Shown here: one piece after another, positions 26,387-59,990 of the stretch
How positions within the stretch are numbered: the first letter of the stretch is position 1
How the letters are laid out: each line of letters begins with the position of its first letter
Assembly: GCA_019356535.1 (NCBI GenBank)
Contig: CP037918.1
Location: 1,830,315-1,894,314 of the forward strand
DNA: 64,000 bases
Reading direction: 5' to 3'
Origin: Chromatiaceae bacterium
GTDB taxonomy: Bacteria; Pseudomonadota; Gammaproteobacteria; Chromatiales; Chromatiaceae
The notes under the pieces: model-generated
What the model saw: only the letters and a program-made list of their open reading frames with translations
Databases searched by the model: none
What the model was told of the DNA's origin: nothing
Program-made: the position numbers and the translations under genes

Positions 26387-29300
26387 TCAGTGAAAATCCC
26401 GCGAGCGTACCGGTAGTTCGCCGAGCAGATCGCTGTGATCTTCCAGCACCCGACCGACCAGGTGCTGCACCCCCTCGGCGCGCTGGACCTCCACTTCCGC
26501 GCCCAGCAGCCCCGCGCCCAGCACGATACGCCGCTCACGCTCGGCCAGGTCGGCCCAGATCAGCAGGTTCTGGGTACCGGTCTCGTCCTCGAGGGTGATA
26601 TACACCGCCCGCCCCTTACCGGGCCGCTGACGGATCAGCACCAGCCCGGCGGTGCGCGTGCGGGCCCCGGCCGGCAGGGCGGCGACCTCGGCGGCGCTGC
26701 ACAGGCCACGCGCACGCAATCGGTGGCGCAGCAGCGCCAGCGGGTGCGCGCGCAGGCTCAGCCCCAGGGCGTGGTAATCGGCCAGCACCGAACGCCCCCG
26801 GCTCGGGGGATCCAACGCCAGGCGCACCCGATCCCGCCCGGGATGCGGAAACAACGGCAGCTGCGGCTCCACACCAGCCACCGCCCAGGCGGCCGCGTGG
26901 CGATGCCCGGCCAGCCCGTGCAGGGCATCGGCCGCGGCCAATGCCTTCAGCTCGCGCCGGGACAGGCCGGCACGACGAGCCAGGTCGTCCACATCCTGGA
27001 AATCGCCCTGGGCACGTACCGTCACCAGGCGTTCGCCCGCCGCGCGTGACAACCCTCTGATCATCCGCAGTCCCAGACGCAGTACCGGGCGGGCAGGGTC
27101 ATCGTCCGCAGGCTCCAGGGTGCAGCACCAGTCGCTGGAGCGCACATCCGCCGGGCGGACCTCCACCCCGTGTTCGCGGGCGTCGCGCACCAGTTGCGCA
27201 GGCGCGTAGAAGCCCATCGGCTGGCTGTTGAGCAAGGCTGCGCAGAAAGCCGCCGGATGATGGCACTTGAGCCAGGCCGAGGCATAGGCCAGCAGGGCGA
27301 AGCTGGCAGCATGTGACTCGGGGAAGCCGTATTCGCCAAAGCCCAGGATCTGCCGGTAGATACGTTCGGCGAAGTCACGCGCATAGCCGCGTTCGGCCAT
27401 GCCGCGCAACAGGCGCTCGCGCCAGGGCGCCAGCCCACCTCGCCGCCACCAGGCCGCCATCGCCCGGCGCAGGCCATCGGCCTCGCCGGCGCTGAACCCC
27501 GCTGCGACCATCGCCAGGCGGATCACCTGCTCCTGGAAGATGGGCACCCCCAGGGTACGCTCGAGTACCTCACGCACCGCCGCCGAGGGATATTCCACCG
27601 GCTCCAGTCCCTGCCGCCGGCGCAGGTAGGGGTGCACCATATCGCCCTGGATGGGGCCGGGGCGCACGATGGCCACCTCGATGACCAGATCGTAGAAAGT
27701 GCGCGGCTTCAGACGCGGCAGCATGGCCATCTGCGCGCGCGACTCGATCTGGAAGACGCCGATGGTGTCCGCACGGCGAATCATGGCATAAGTGGCCGGG
27801 TCCTCTGGCGGGATGTAGGCCAACGTCGAGTGCCGCCTCCCGGCTGCCCCCTCCCGGCCTCCCCCGCAAGCGGGGGAGGAGCTGTCACCATGGTTGCCGT
27901 GGCCGGAAAAGAGTGCCTCTCCCCCTCCCCGCTCGCGGGGAGTGTCGGAGTGGGGCCTTCCGGCCGCCCCCTCCCAACCTCCCCCGCAAGCGGGAGAGGA
28001 GCCGTCACGATGGTTGCCGCAGGCAGGGGAGGAACCCGCCCCCTCCCCGCTCGCGGGGAGGGCCGGGGAGGGGCCCCGGGCAGGCGGCAGGAAGGGCCCA
28101 CCGAACGCATTGATCAGCTGCAGACAGCGGCGGATCGCCGAAAGCATGCCCAGCGAGAGGATATCGATCTTGAGCAGACCCAGGGCCTCGAGGTCGTCCT
28201 TCTCCCATTGGATGACGGTGCGGCTGGGCATGGCGGCGTTCTCGATGGGCACCAGCTCGTCGAGCCGTCCGCGTGCGATCACGAAGCCGCCCACATGCTG
28301 CGAGAGGTGACGCGGAAAACCCAGCAGCTCGTTGACCAGCACCCGCAGGCGGTGCAGGCGCGGGTTGTCCGGGTCGAAACCGGCCTCGGCCAGGTATTCC
28401 GGCTTCAGCTCGCCACGCCGCCGCCAGGCCGCGGCCGCCGCGACCAGCGCCTCGATCTGCCCGGCCTCCAGCCCCAGGACACGCCCCACGTCACGGATAG
28501 CGCTGCGCACCCGCCAGGTGATGACTGTCGCCGCCAGCGCCGCGCGCTCGCGGCCATAACGTTGGTAGATGTACTGGATCACCTCCTCGCGGCGCTCGTG
28601 CTCGAAGTCCACGTCGATGTCCGGCGGCTCGCCCCGCTCGCGCGAGACGAAACGCTCGAACAGCAGGTTCATGCGCGACGGATCCACCTCGGTGATGCCC
28701 AGGCAGTAGCAGACCGCCGAGTTGGCCGCCGACCCCCGTCCCTGGCAGAGAATGCCGCGGCGGCGTGCGAAGCGCACAATGTCCCACACGGTGAGGAAAT
28801 AGGCCTCGTAGCGCAGCTCGGCAATCAATGCCAACTCGTGCTCGATCTGCGCGCGCACCGAGTCCGGGCAACCGTCCGGCCAGCGGACCAGCATGCCCTG
28901 CTCCACCTGCTCGCGCAGGAAGTCATGAGGATCACGGCCGGCCGGCACCACGTCGTCAGGGTAGTCGTAGCGCAGCTCGTCGAGCGAGAAGGAGCACAAG
29001 TCCGCGATGCGCAGGCTCTCGGCCAGCAGCGCGGCCGGGTAGCATGTACGCAGCGCCTCGAGTGGCCGCAGGTGACGCTCGCCATTGATCAGCGCCGCCT
29101 CGCCCAGCGTCTCCAGCGTGCATCCCAGGCGGACGGCGCTCAGGGTATCGGCCAGAGCGCGCCGCCCGCGCACGTGCATCAGCACATCGCCCACTGCGAC
29201 GAGCGGCAGACCGTGCCGCGCCGCGGCATCCTGAGCCTGTTCGAGCCGCTGCGCATCGTCTCCCTCGTTCAACAGGGCCAGCGCCAGCCAGCCACGCTCG

Positions 29301-29710
29301 GGAAAGCAGTCGGCAAACCAGGCAAACGCATCTTCCGGCGCATCGGCTGCCAGCAGGGCCAGGCAGCCGTCCAGCCCCGCACAATCACCTCGTGACAGCC
29401 GGTAGTCGCCCTTTGTCGCCTGCCTGCGTGCACAGGTGATCAGGCGACACAACTGCCCGTAACCCCGGCGGTTGCGCGCCAGCAGCGTCAGGTCATCGCC
29501 CTCGGCCAGACGGAATCGCGCCCCCACGATCAGCCGCAGCCCGGCCGCCTTCGCCGCCAGATGCGCCTGCACCACCCCGGCTACCGAGCACTCGTCGGTG
29601 AGCGCCAGCGCGGCATAGCCCAGCGCCGCCGCGCGCTCGACCAGTTCGCCCGGATGCGAGGCCCCCTGCAGAAAGCTGTAGTTGCTGCGGCACTGGAGTT
29701 CGGCGTACAT
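26387..29710 (-). CDS. dnaE2: Error-prone DNA polymerase DnaE2 (ImuC), with in-frame repeat insertion
   Basis: DnaE2 is the damage-induced C-family polymerase that works with ImuA and ImuB in mutagenic bypass. The 1107-residue protein begins with a PHP domain (MYAELQCRSNYSFLQG) and has the polymerase core with catalytic aspartates in PPDIDVDFEHERRE and the GVFQIESRAQ motif. About residues 538-625 are a glycine/proline/serine-rich insertion encoded by palindromic repeats (27836-28097); family members pass directly from the EIRxxL-type helix to the IPPEDP segment here. Start ATG 29710 is where homologues start. A LexA-like box lies 49 bp upstream. imuA-imuB are about 28 kb away. Confidence 0.92.
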   Translation of the reverse strand: MYAELQCRSNYSFLQGASHPGELVERAAALGYAALALTDECSVAGVVQAHLAAKAAGLRLIVGARFRLAEGDDLTLLARNRRGYGQLCRLITCARRQATKGDYRLSRGDCAGLDGCLALLAADAPEDAFAWFADCFPERGWLALALLNEGDDAQRLEQAQDAAARHGLPLVAVGDVLMHVRGRRALADTLSAVRLGCTLETLGEAALINGERHLRPLEALRTCYPAALLAESLRIADLCSFSLDELRYDYPDDVVPAGRDPHDFLREQVEQGMLVRWPDGCPDSVRAQIEHELALIAELRYEAYFLTVWDIVRFARRRGILCQGRGSAANSAVCYCLGITEVDPSRMNLLFERFVSRERGEPPDIDVDFEHERREEVIQYIYQRYGRERAALAATVITWRVRSAIRDVGRVLGLEAGQIEALVAAAAAWRRRGELKPEYLAEAGFDPDNPRLHRLRVLVNELLGFPRHLSQHVGGFVIARGRLDELVPIENAAMPSRTVIQWEKDDLEALGLLKIDILSLGMLSAIRRCLQLINAFGGPFLPPARGPSPALPASGEGAGSSPACGNHRDGSSPACGGGWEGAAGRPHSDTPRERGGGEALFSGHGNHGDSSSPACGGGREGAAGRRHSTLAYIPPEDPATYAMIRRADTIGVFQIESRAQMAMLPRLKPRTFYDLVIEVAIVRPGPIQGDMVHPYLRRRQGLEPVEYPSAAVREVLERTLGVPIFQEQVIRLAMVAAGFSAGEADGLRRAMAAWWRRGGLAPWRERLLRGMAERGYARDFAERIYRQILGFGEYGFPESHAASFALLAYASAWLKCHHPAAFCAALLNSQPMGFYAPAQLVRDAREHGVEVRPADVRSSDWCCTLEPADDDPARPVLRLGLRMIRGLSRAAGERLVTVRAQGDFQDVDDLARRAGLSRRELKALAAADALHGLAGHRHAAAWAVAGVEPQLPLFPHPGRDRVRLALDPPSRGRSVLADYHALGLSLRAHPLALLRHRLRARGLCSAAEVAALPAGARTRTAGLVLIRQRPGKGRAVYITLEDETGTQNLLIWADLAERERRIVLGAGLLGAEVEVQRAEGVQHLVGRVLEDHSDLLGELPVRSRDFH
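27836..28097. repeat. Palindromic repeat cluster inserted in the dnaE2 reading frame
   Basis: Four to five copies of a GC-rich hairpin repeat lie here in alternating orientation (about 27846-27881, 27924-27957, 27960-28003 and 28040-28079). Each has a core like CCCCGCTCGCGGGG or CCCCCGCAAGCGGGGG with CGGGGAGGGG-type flanks. The block keeps the dnaE2 frame open, and its minus-strand translation repeats the words LPASGEG and SSPACGGG. The repeat family also occurs in five other places in this window. Confidence 0.88.
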
Positions 29711-29758
29711 GGCCCGGCGACCGAAAACAGGGGAACACGGACCGGACGGCCCGATGGA

Positions 29759-29773
29759 GAACAAATATAGAAC
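29759..29773 (-). promoter_or_regulatory. LexA-like box (GTTC-N7-GTTC) at the dnaE2 promoter
   Basis: On the minus strand the sequence is GTTCTATATTTGTTC, a direct repeat GTTC-N7-GTTC followed by TCCAT. A TATATT hexamer inside it could be the -10 element, with TTGCTC 18 bp upstream as -35, so a bound repressor would block the promoter. The flanked 20-mer is identical to the one before imuA. Confidence 0.72.
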
Positions 29774-44295: not shown

Positions 44296-44714
44296 ACTGA
44301 TCACCCGCCTGGCTGCTGGACACCAATATCCTTTCCGACCTGATCCGCCACCCGCAGGGCGTTATCGCCGAACGAATCGCCGGGGTCGGAGAAGACGCTG
44401 TCTGCACCAGCATCGTCGTCGCTGCCGAGCTTCGCTATGGCGCTGTCAAATCCGGATCGACGAAACTTTCCGAGCGCGTCGAACTGCTGCTCTCTGCCCT
44501 GGAAATCCTGCCGCTCGAACCACCCGCCGACCGGGAGTACGCCAGGCTGCGCCACCACCTGGACCGACAAGGCACGCCGATCGGCCCCAATGACCTGCTG
44601 ATCGCCGCCCAGGCCTTGGCAACGGACCTGACAGTCGTTACCGCGAATACCCGGGAATTCACGCGCGTTCCGGGCCTGAAGACGGAAAACTGGCTCGAAG
44701 AACCACCGGTTTGA
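44292..44714 (+). pseudogene. vapC: VapC-type PIN toxin with an early stop codon
   Basis: From about 44301 the frame encodes a full PIN-domain ribonuclease (WLLDTNILSDLIRHPQG ... VVAAELRYG ... PIGPNDLLIAAQALATDL). The acidic residues D (LLDTN), E (AAELR) and D (PNDLL) are all present, and the end (stop 44712-44714) is normal. However, the natural start, GTG 44292 overlapping the vapB stop, is followed two codons later by TGA (44298-44300). No ATG, GTG or TTG start exists after that stop before the active-site aspartate; only CTG codons at 44313 and 44316. The toxin is therefore probably dead, or uses a rare CTG start, or the base call is wrong. Confidence 0.7.
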
Positions 44715-44810
44715 ATGCCCTCCCGTGCGCGGCGAGATCGGAGGTTTCCGAAGCCCGCCCGGTAGCCAAACCAAAGGGGAAACCGCAAAGAACGCGACAG
44801 GTTCTAGGCG

Positions 44811-44882
44811 TAGTAACGACCAAGCTGTGCGGCGCAAACGAAGCGCAGCGTAGTTTGCGTCCGAACGAGCGCATTGTTAGCC
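44811..44882 (-). repeat. attC-like recombination site of the integron cassette
   Basis: Read on the minus strand, a 72-bp imperfect palindrome begins with GGCTAAC (44882-44876, R''-like) and ends with GTTACTA (44817-44811, R'-like). Inner arms CGCAAAC/GTTTGCG pair around a 13-nt loop. The stop codon of the GIY-YIG gene is the TAA inside GGCTAAC, as in many gene cassettes. The outer motifs are not perfect to the RYYYAAC/GTTRRRY consensus. Confidence 0.68.
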
Positions 44883-45505: not shown

Positions 45506-45563
45506 AGGTGATTATGTGGCTGGCACGAATATCGTGATATGTGGCTGGCGCCAATATTGCGAT
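45499..45563. repeat. attI-like site: crossover core plus two tandem 25-bp repeats
   Basis: The core GTTAGCC (minus strand) lies at 45505-45499. Next to it, two directly adjacent 25-bp repeats (45514-45538 and 45539-45563, ATGTGGCTGGC...GAT) match at 21 of 25 positions. The class 1 attI site also has a core with nearby direct repeats bound by IntI, so the layout fits. The sequence itself is not that of attI1. Confidence 0.55.
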
Positions 45564-45590
45564 ATGCGACCATTTGTTCTATACTTGTTC
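45557..45590 (+). promoter_or_regulatory. intI promoter with overlapping LexA-like box
   Basis: TTGCGA (45557-45562), a 17-bp spacer and TATACT (45580-45585) form a good sigma-70 promoter facing intI. The box GTTCTATACTTGTTC (45576-45590), a GTTC-N7-GTTC repeat, covers the -10. Together with TCCAT it differs by one base from the boxes before imuA and dnaE2. SOS control of integron integrases is well known. Confidence 0.72.
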
Positions 45591-45622
45591 TCCATCGATC
45601 CGACACACACGGAGGTTTGCCC

Positions 45623-46352
45623 ATGTCCGACCAAGCATCTGCCCCGGAAGGCCCTCGCGTAGCACGCTTCTGGCGCGCCTATCTCGAGACACTGCGCTTG
45701 TTCCGTGTTCCCGAGCGCGCCTGCCCCTAGTATCGACGCTATGTGGAGGCGTTCATGCAGGCCCATCCGGGTGTTCGCCTGCGTGAGCATACGACGGAGA
45801 CGGTCATCCACTGGCTGGAGGCGCAGGGGCGCAATCCGCTGGTGCCCGATTGGCAACTTCGTCAGCAGGCCGATGCCTTGCGTTTGCTGTTTGCCCATCA
45901 CCTGCGCCTGGAATGGGCCAAGACGTTCGATTGGAATGGGTGGATGCAGGGCAGCAAAGGGCTGGAGGCTAACCACCCTACCTTGGCGCGGTCGAGCGAC
46001 ATGATCGAGAAGGCGGTGGCTGCGACGGACAATTCGCTGGGTGCACGCTTTCCGGCGCTGTACCGCCGTTTTCTGACCCTGGTGCGGTCGCGCGGGTATT
46101 CGGTGAACACCGAGAAGGCCTATCTCGGCTGGATAAACCGTTACCTGTTGTTCCATAAGGACAAGGATCCCTTTGTCGGCACCGAACAGGCGGTAGGTTC
46201 CTTTTTAGAATATCTGGCACTGAAACGCAAAGTAGCCAGCACCACCCAAGCGCAGGCATTGAATGCGCTGGTGTTCCTGTTCGCGCAGGTGCTGAAGAAA
46301 CCACTGGGCGACATCGGCCCCTTTCTCCGAGCCAACCGACCGCGGCACCTAA
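45623..46352 (+). pseudogene. Integron-type tyrosine recombinase IntI, broken
   Basis: The frame starts at ATG 45623 (MSDQASAPEG), meets an amber TAG at 45728-45730 and continues in the same frame to about 46350. Residues after about 130 match the integrase SAM-like domain (YSVNTEKAYLGWINRYLLFHK ... TTQAQALNALVFLFAQVLKKPLGDI ... ANRPRHL), close to the pattern of integron integrases. A roughly 130-residue N-terminal extension precedes it. The catalytic C-terminal domain (R...HxxR...Y) is missing: the similarity stops just before the radical SAM gene. It cannot be an active enzyme. Confidence 0.8.
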
Positions 46353-57881: not shown

Positions 57882-59312
57882 CTAATCGAACAAACCGTGC
57901 AGAAACCACCCCCCGCCCCGCCGGTCGCGGTAGATCCAGAAGCGCTCGTTGGCGGGGTTGCAAGCCAGATAGTAGTCACGCGCCACATCGTCGCCGTCCC
58001 ACCACCCGGTCTCGATGCGCCGCGGTGGCCCGAGCAGTTCGAGCGCGCCGCGATGCCAGGGACGGCCTGCGCGCACCCTCAGCGGCCGTGGTTGCGGCAG
58101 CAGCCACAGGGGCAACTCGCCGCGCCAGGATGATCGAGCTCCCGCCTCGCCCGGCGCACAGCAGCGCTGCGCGCGCTCGGGACGGTGATCGGCGACCGGG
58201 CAGAGCCCCGTCAGGCGCGGCCCCAGGCGGCTGTGCAGACGTTCCAGCCACTCGCCCGCGGCCTCCCCTCCAGCCGGAGCATCCAGCAATGCGGCGGTGC
58301 GCTCTGAAAAGGCCAGGCAGTCGCGCACTTCGAGCCCCAGCGCACGTACCGGCGCCGGCAGCTCCAGGCGCTGCAGGCGTTCACCGAAACGGGCCAGCAA
58401 GTATTCGGCATCGCGCTCGGGCCGCAACAGAGTCTGCGCGAAGACCGTCTCAGGCTGGTCGTCGGGATGCCGCAGGTGCCAGCGCAGGTGCTGGGTAGCC
58501 GCCCCCTGCCCGCGCAGCCAGCCGCACAGGGTCAGCAACAGGCGCCGTGCCGGGAAACGCAGGGCCTCGCGATCGTCCAGCTCGGCCGGCAGTTCGAGCC
58601 ATTCCAGAAAGTGCGGCGGTGGTTGCCAGGGCAAACGCGGGTCCGGGGCGTCACCCAGCAGGCGGTCGAGCAGGGCTGGCAAGCCGGGGCCAACGCGCCG
58701 CGCCAGTTCGGGACGCGGCAGGCGCAGCACATCACCGATACCGTGCAGGCCGATGTCGCGGACCAGTTGACGCACCCGCGGGTCAGCACTCAGCCGCGCC
58801 ATGGGGATGTCTTCCAGCCAGGGCAGCAGAGCCTCGCGCGAGGCGACCCGTGCCCCGGGTCGTTCACGCGCCAGCAGGGCCGCCGCGGTGGCGGTATGCG
58901 CCACAGCCAGGCGCGCCGCGTGCCCGAGCGCGGGCAGTTCTGCCTCGATGCGCCCGAGCAGCGCCTCCATGCCACCGAACAGGCGCAGGCTGGCACCGAT
59001 CTCGAGCAGCAGCAGCGCCGGCTCCCGGTACAGGCGCGAGCTGTACTGCCAGGCCCACAGCGCCAGCGCCTCCATAGCCCGCTGTTCGCGTTCGGCATCA
59101 CGCGGCCACAGGCGCAGCCGTGGCAACAGGGCCAGTGCCGCCGGCACCGGCAGGCCCGGATGCACACCCGCGGCACGCGCGGCGGCATTGCAACGCAACA
59201 CCGTCTCGCGTCCATCGCGCACGGCATGCACCGCTGCCGGCGACCGGTCTGTCGTGCCGCGCAGAAACACCTCCAGCGGCAGCTCGGGAAAGTACAGTCC
59301 CAGCCAGAGCAC
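57882..59312 (-). CDS. imuB: ImuB, Y-family polymerase-like mutagenesis factor
   Basis: ImuB is a catalytically inactive Y-family relative that, in known systems, joins the beta clamp, ImuA and DnaE2. The 476-residue protein starts LWLGLYFPELPLEVF and has the Y-family region (AVRDGRETVLRCNAAARAAGVHPGL) and the SLRLFGGMEALL, LGDAPDPRLPWQPPPHF and C-terminal LLGPPRRIETGWWDG segments of ImuB/DUF6504-type proteins. The acidic catalytic residues of active Y polymerases are not evident. The start is GTG 59312, six bases after the imuA stop. Confidence 0.9.
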   Translation of the reverse strand: MLWLGLYFPELPLEVFLRGTTDRSPAAVHAVRDGRETVLRCNAAARAAGVHPGLPVPAALALLPRLRLWPRDAEREQRAMEALALWAWQYSSRLYREPALLLLEIGASLRLFGGMEALLGRIEAELPALGHAARLAVAHTATAAALLARERPGARVASREALLPWLEDIPMARLSADPRVRQLVRDIGLHGIGDVLRLPRPELARRVGPGLPALLDRLLGDAPDPRLPWQPPPHFLEWLELPAELDDREALRFPARRLLLTLCGWLRGQGAATQHLRWHLRHPDDQPETVFAQTLLRPERDAEYLLARFGERLQRLELPAPVRALGLEVRDCLAFSERTAALLDAPAGGEAAGEWLERLHSRLGPRLTGLCPVADHRPERAQRCCAPGEAGARSSWRGELPLWLLPQPRPLRVRAGRPWHRGALELLGPPRRIETGWWDGDDVARDYYLACNPANERFWIYRDRRGGGWFLHGLFD

Positions 59313-59318
59313 GTCGCT

Positions 59319-59948
59319 TCACCGTTGCCGCAAGGGCACCAGGCAACGCCGACCGCCCCAGCCACCGCGCCGCTTGAGCACCTCGACCTCCACGCCCAGC
59401 GGTGCGGGCAGCAGGCGCAGGCGCAACGCTGCCGGCGACGGCTGCGCGGCATCGCGCAGCGAGCGGAACAATAGGCCGATGGCATTCCCGGCCCCGGCGG
59501 CCAGTTGCAGGCGGCGGATCTGGGCCGAGGTCAGGTGCCCTGGCCAGATCAGCACCACGCCGCACTCGCCCGAACGCAACATCTGCTCGGCCGCCCACAG
59601 GCCCTCGGCGGCATCGCGCTCGCCTACCAGCAGCAGGCGGGCCGGGTCCACGCCTCCCTGCACCAGCGCGGGCACAAAGGGCGATTGCGGCGGCGCAACC
59701 CAGCCGATCCAGCGCCCTGCCCCACTCTCCCGCGCCAGCAGGGGCAAGGCCAGTGACAGACCCAGACCACGCCGGCTGAGCAACTCGCCCAGCGCACCAC
59801 GCGGCCAGCCGCCACCCAGGCAGTCGTCGAGCACCGGCCAACCGCTCGGCACCACGTCCCCGCCCGGCGAATGCAGCTCGCGCCCGCGCCACAACAGGCG
59901 GCGGTCCACGCCCTCGGCAACCAGCTTGTCGATCAACGGGGCAGCCAT
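59319..59948 (-). CDS. imuA: ImuA, SOS cell-division/mutagenesis cassette protein
   Basis: The 209-residue protein is a RecA/SulA-like member of the ImuA family, acting with ImuB and DnaE2 in damage-induced mutagenesis. Seen are SGWPVLDDCLGGGWPRGALGELL (a degraded Walker-like region), ERDAAEGLWAAEQMLRSGECGVVLIW and RRLQLAAGAGNAIGLLF. ATG 59948 has GAGG nine bases upstream; the longer frame would start within the SOS box. The LexA-like box is 28 bp upstream. Confidence 0.88.
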   Translation of the reverse strand: MAAPLIDKLVAEGVDRRLLWRGRELHSPGGDVVPSGWPVLDDCLGGGWPRGALGELLSRRGLGLSLALPLLARESGAGRWIGWVAPPQSPFVPALVQGGVDPARLLLVGERDAAEGLWAAEQMLRSGECGVVLIWPGHLTSAQIRRLQLAAGAGNAIGLLFRSLRDAAQPSPAALRLRLLPAPLGVEVEVLKRRGGWGGRRCLVPLRQR

Positions 59949-59975
59949 GCACCAGACCTCGCACCAGGAAATGGA

Positions 59976-59990
59976 GAACAAATATAGAAC
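59976..59990 (-). promoter_or_regulatory. LexA-like box (GTTC-N7-GTTC) at the imuA promoter
   Basis: Minus-strand GTTCTATATTTGTTC, followed by TCCAT. The 20-mer is identical to that before dnaE2 and one base different from that before intI. A TATATT hexamer inside it may be the -10. Confidence 0.72.

Follow-up and report, generated by a model that had tools for sequence, protein, structure and literature searches.

Three promoters in the 64,000-nucleotide stretch of Chromatiaceae DNA analysed here, hereafter the window, raise the question of which repressor would read, in a gammaproteobacterial host, the GTTC-N7-GTTC motif known for Alphaproteobacteria (excerpts of PMC8565304, PMC9578287 and PMC3323433). 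An earlier note had claimed that the promoters of dnaE2, imuA and intI share a 20-mer with at most one difference, and this was confirmed, coordinates included: when up to three mismatches are allowed, GTTCTATATTTGTTCTCCAT has three matches in the window against 0.00 expected, two of them exact and on the minus strand, in the promoters of dnaE2 (29754-29773) and imuA (59971-59990), and one on the plus strand with a single difference, in that of intI (45576-45595). GTTC-N7-GTTC itself matches five times in the window, against 1.05 expected, a number reached in none of 100 shuffles, and the remaining two matches (5680 and 45403) are unlike GTTCTATATTTGTTCTCCAT.

The predicted LexA box of dnaE2, GTTCTATATTTGTTC, occupies positions 29759-29773 on the minus strand, 63 bp 5' of the ATG, with a -10-like TATATT (29764-29769, minus strand) between its GTTC half-sites; the gene itself (26387-29710, minus strand; NF004225) encodes an error-prone DNA polymerase. 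The same predicted box is found at 59976-59990 on the minus strand, 42 bp 5' of the ATG of imuA (59319-59948, minus strand; NF033429), and also contains a -10-like TATATT (59981-59986, minus strand). A probable imuB (57882-59312, minus strand) is assigned by its position after imuA, an NCBIfam match being absent. At intI, the predicted box is GTTCTATACTTGTTC (45576-45590, plus strand), placed 47 bp 5' of the ATG, with a -10-like TATACT within it (45580-45585, plus strand) and a -35-like TTGCGA (45557-45562, plus strand) 17 bp 5' of the -10-like element. This integrase gene (45623-46325, plus strand) is broken, as earlier claimed, by a TAG at codon 36 and by truncation, its C-terminal half being missing; its 3' end is set as the end of its match to a second copy (L033), and the remnant matches TIGR02249 as a fragment, with a score of 80, below the cut-off of 265.

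Some further features were noted in or beside these genes. Within dnaE2, two tandem 120-nt units (27828-28067), 72% alike and in frame, add a Gly/Ser/Pro-rich stretch between two conserved halves. Beside the broken intI, a gene for a PIN-domain (VapC-like) toxin seems, by eye, to be present at 44301-44735 on the plus strand, and it is followed near 44800-44880 by an attC-like sequence, also recognised by eye; an Rfam scan of the 43.5-47 kb region of the window gave no match above threshold.

The host genome consists of one contig of 2,745,378 bp, and its only LexA, the single PF01726 match, scores 159.1 bits over the whole protein against TIGR00498 (cut-off 110.95). Residues A100-G101, S134 and K172, which we take to be the self-cleavage site and the conserved Ser/Lys pair of LexA, are invariant in a 19-row alignment. 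An exact GTTC-N7-GTTC, the alphaproteobacterial-type SOS box, is found at lexA as well as at dnaE2, imuA and intI, the lexA promoter carrying GTTCTACATTGGTTC on the minus strand directly 5' of the start, and the promoter of the sole recA contains GTTCTCTTTTTGTTT, with one mismatch to the box (GTTT). CTGT-N8-ACAG is not enriched genome-wide (15 places versus 23 for a reversed-pattern control), and none of these 15 places is at lexA or recA. Considering that (i) LexA is single, (ii) its own promoter carries the box, (iii) recA has a box as well, and (iv) E. coli-type boxes are unenriched, the first of two branches offered in the earlier note, a resident LexA with GTTC-N7-GTTC specificity, appears to hold. 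Inspection of the two promoters, which that note had proposed, did not reveal the arrangement named there as contrary to its reading (lexA and recA with E. coli-type boxes only), because lexA carries the exact box and recA the one-mismatch box; both also support the three window sites as putative SOS boxes of the GTTC-N7-GTTC kind. With the predicted box of the resident LexA at lexA, recA (one mismatch), imuA, dnaE2 and intI, this set would qualify as an SOS regulon.

When one mismatch at most is allowed, a refined pattern, GTTCTHYWYTKGTTC, occurs at 11 places genome-wide, compared with three for the control, and seven of the 11 correspond to lexA, recA, imuA, dnaE2 and three integron integrase loci. 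The other four are taken as chance: three lie within long reading frames (248204, 1260952 and 2483595) and one is without a gene start close downstream (1282222). A wider regulon (uvrA, ssb and others) was also considered, 50 of the 83 genomic GTTC-N7-GTTC places being classified with a crude GC3 gene model, and was rejected: besides those of lexA and intI, the intergenic places precede no gene recognised as SOS, being located upstream of rho-like, adenylylsulfate kinase-like and ftsK-like genes, as named by eye.

The other branch of the earlier note, a second, dedicated LexA that runs the mutagenesis regulon through the GTTC box while the main LexA reads another motif, has a precedent in the lexA2-imuA-imuB-dnaE2 cassette of Pseudomonas putida (excerpts of PMC3901139), where imuA, imuB and dnaE2 are under LexA control, as proposed for the host; besides, a pair of LexAs is present in two sister genera (G009 and G018), with one of the pair beside imuA. 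The complete host genome, however, holds one PF01726 match, with the GTTC box in its own promoter, and unlike the P. putida cassette it is without a second LexA and has dnaE2 ~30 kb from imuA, under a box of its own. The sister genera, moreover, display the reverse of the proposal, since the extra LexA adjoining imuA is the canonical one, the GTTC-type LexA being encoded elsewhere in the genome, and their dnaE2 has the E. coli-type CTGT-N8-ACAG. Thus, the canonical LexA beside imuA makes the second-LexA reading fit these relatives and not the host genome, for which we regard it as extremely improbable. In G009 and G018 the mutagenesis cassette is apparently still under the canonical LexA despite the presence of a GTTC-type one, whereas in the host genus the GTTC-type LexA would control it.

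Among members of the host genus, imuA is boxed in all seven genomes having it. In three of them (G001, G002 and G004) and in G010, from another genus, dnaE2 follows imuA at a short distance on the same strand, leaving enough space for imuB, and is without a box of its own, while in G000, G005 and G006 it is found away from imuA and with its own box. In the close relative G005 (L196 and L197 being the dnaE2 loci of G000 and G005) the box is kept but the open frame comprises only 471 aa, and dnaE2 may therefore be broken there.

These arrangements bear on the earlier suggestion of copying, by which duplication would have spread one promoter to all three genes. The 20-mer is indeed identical at dnaE2 and imuA and has one difference at intI, and dnaE2, downstream of imuA in some relatives, has its own box where it has moved (G000, G005 and G006), so that for dnaE2 the short operator itself could have been copied. 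Nonetheless, similarity stops at the 20-mer, the flanks beyond it being no more alike in the three promoters than shuffles (p = 0.05 in one of six local comparisons), other genera have the same 15-mer before imuA and intI, and variant boxes retain the -10 letters. Copying of the promoters is thus not upheld, and we consider it improbable.

The identity along the 20-mer is instead attributed to the sigma70-like -10 element that would sit between the half-sites. Of 34 imuA, dnaE2 and intI sites, 33 have a spacer starting with TA and 29 a spacer with T as the sixth letter, matching a -10 hexamer. Regarding the -35 element, a T occupies the first place at all 34 sites and TTG is present in most; TTG stands at 17-bp spacing in most integrase sites, whose promoters are related to one another, and most of the imuA and dnaE2 sites have a weak -35. 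The predicted operator, -10 element and start region together suffice to explain the 20 letters, and copying need not be invoked.

It is the resident repressor to which the boxes are assigned: with high confidence, they would be operators of the host's single LexA, shutting SOS genes until DNA damage. LexA would bind GTTC-N7-GTTC and keep the promoters of lexA, recA, imuA(-imuB), dnaE2 and the integron integrase shut. At imuA, dnaE2 and intI the half-sites would flank the -10 element, and bound LexA would therefore exclude RNA polymerase from these promoters, whose exact start sites are predicted. Upon DNA damage, activated RecA would lead to LexA self-cleavage, and the promoters would open. 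A LexA box over the -10 element is likewise described for the SOS integrases of Vibrio and mobile integrons (excerpts of PMC8876359), theirs being CTGT-N8-ACAG in contrast to the GTTC-N7-GTTC of the host.

A LexA-profile scan of named genomes detected relatives in Chromatiales, including its member Sedimenticola, in Methylococcales and in others. An exact GTTC-N7-GTTC occurs within 200 bp in 57 of 77 related lexA promoters (80 named loci minus three with too short upstream sequence) versus 8 of 1,932 control windows, counts that treat related sequences as independent; the exact motif is missing from the remaining 20, two boxes are present in 19 of the 77, with opposite orientations in all or most of them, and CTGT-N8-ACAG is found in none of the 77. 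As a positive control, the same procedure was applied to lexA promoters of Alphaproteobacteria and detected the box in all 29, one of 30 loci having been dropped for an unreadable start. The predicted GTTC-N7-GTTC specificity thus extends over a wide lineage that includes Chromatiales and Methylococcales, among others. In four genomes (G366, G370, G374 and G398), lexA and a short S24 peptidase match (UmuD-like in its length and range) are divergently oriented and a few hundred bases apart, and both may therefore share a promoter region.

Regarding the protein, the recognition helix of the host LexA reads S-R-G-S-L-H-K-Q-I, and those of its lineage S[RK]GS[LM]HK[QH]I, compared with SKSGIHRLI in Alphaproteobacteria; a third LexA group (SKGVVHRYV, SKGTAHRHV) also goes with GTTC-N7-GTTC. 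Canonical helices (e.g., SANAAEEHL) are accompanied by CTGT-N8-ACAG in 9 of 14 distinct genes and by GTTC-N7-GTTC in none of the 14. Glu44-Glu45 of E. coli LexA contact DNA, and upon alignment they correspond to His-Lys in the host protein.

A recent acquisition of box and LexA from an alphaproteobacterium would agree with the shared motif, since the LexA system of Caulobacter and others has half-sites and spacing as in the host, and with the related helix patterns (S-K-S-G-I-H-R versus S-R-G-S-L-H-K in the host). On the contrary, the DNA-binding domain of the host protein is 30% identical to an alpha-type query, and in an unrooted LexA tree (65 rows, 213 columns) the alphaproteobacterial sequences form a clade of their own (100/100, branch 1.35), the host LexA being outside it on a separate branch. 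Recent import is accordingly unlikely, and we judge it very improbable; of the "alphaproteobacterial" label given to the boxes, the motif stands, but recent ancestry does not. In the same unrooted tree, a 97/84 branch has the GTTC readers, alpha and gamma, all to one side, so that a very old link, with a common origin of both groups, is possible. The host system also differs from the alphaproteobacterial one in that its imuA, dnaE2 and intI spacers hold a -10 hexamer and in that integron integrases are among its predicted targets. Sideroxydans and other Betaproteobacteria are likewise said to have a non-canonical LexA with a box unlike that of E. coli; both are thus proteobacterial subgroups with a non-E. 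coli box, that of the host being a direct repeat and theirs, reportedly, a B. subtilis-like palindrome.

In the host genome the box is kept before three integrase remnants, namely the window intI, L005 (1187375), which is split over two frames, and L033 (1036330), which lies ~2 kb after recA and is 85.5% identical to the window intI over 788 bp; no intact intI is among the matches listed there (two matches, both broken). Integrase matches occur in at least 114 of 210 family genomes, and 69 intI regions were considered, comprising the first 30 loci minus one C-terminal piece and 40 further N-terminal matches, and thus part of the N-terminal matches among those listed, several others being left out. 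GTTC-N7-GTTC is found in 21 of these 69 promoters, among the matches listed, versus 4 of 767 control windows, with related sequences again counted as independent; all 21 boxes are on the coding strand at -47 to -60, and CTGT-N8-ACAG is present in none of the 69 N-terminal regions among the matches listed. The boxed reading frames comprise 446-467 aa in 18 of 21 cases. Against TIGR02249 (cut-off 265), the relatives L276 and L309 score 458.5 and 438.4 bits and the C-terminal piece of L005 324.4, and the other box-bearing proteins share 56-87% identity with L276 or L309 along the aligned portion.

Over 62 genomes, a GTTC-type LexA is present in 42 (in one of them, G405, as a partial sequence at a contig edge) and absent from 20, and a boxed intI is found in 21 of the 42 versus none of the 20 (Fisher p = 3e-5, uncorrected for kinship). 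All 21 intI-box genomes thus carry a GTTC-type LexA, one being seen in part, but the exact box is missing from the tested intI in half of all genomes with such a LexA. The helix was read in 18 of the 21 intI-box genomes and always conforms to S[RK]G-x-x-H-[KR], the lexA promoter being boxed in 18 of 18; the LexA start was unread in 15 of 50 loci, three of these from intI-box genomes.

According to the excerpts of PMC3108266 (Cambray et al. 2011), 1,103 intI promoters were compared there with 15 LexA motifs including the alphaproteobacterial one, only E. coli-type LexA sites were found before intI, and Chromatiaceae are stated to have no LexA. Considering the operators that match over the -10 element, we think it likely that in this Chromatiales lineage integron integrases are under SOS control through a non-E. 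coli LexA motif, which, if true, contradicts the published confinement of such control to hosts with a LexA specific for the E. coli motif. No report of GTTC-N7-GTTC in gammaproteobacteria or at intI was found in the open-licence literature, and earlier ones may exist; as far as searched, the predicted operators would represent an ordinary mechanism in an unusual lineage, new at integron integrases within that literature. One family would thus have integrases under LexA control through a different box, in most cases ahead of a full-length integrase gene, and would allow the joint change of a global repressor and its targets to be tested in nature.
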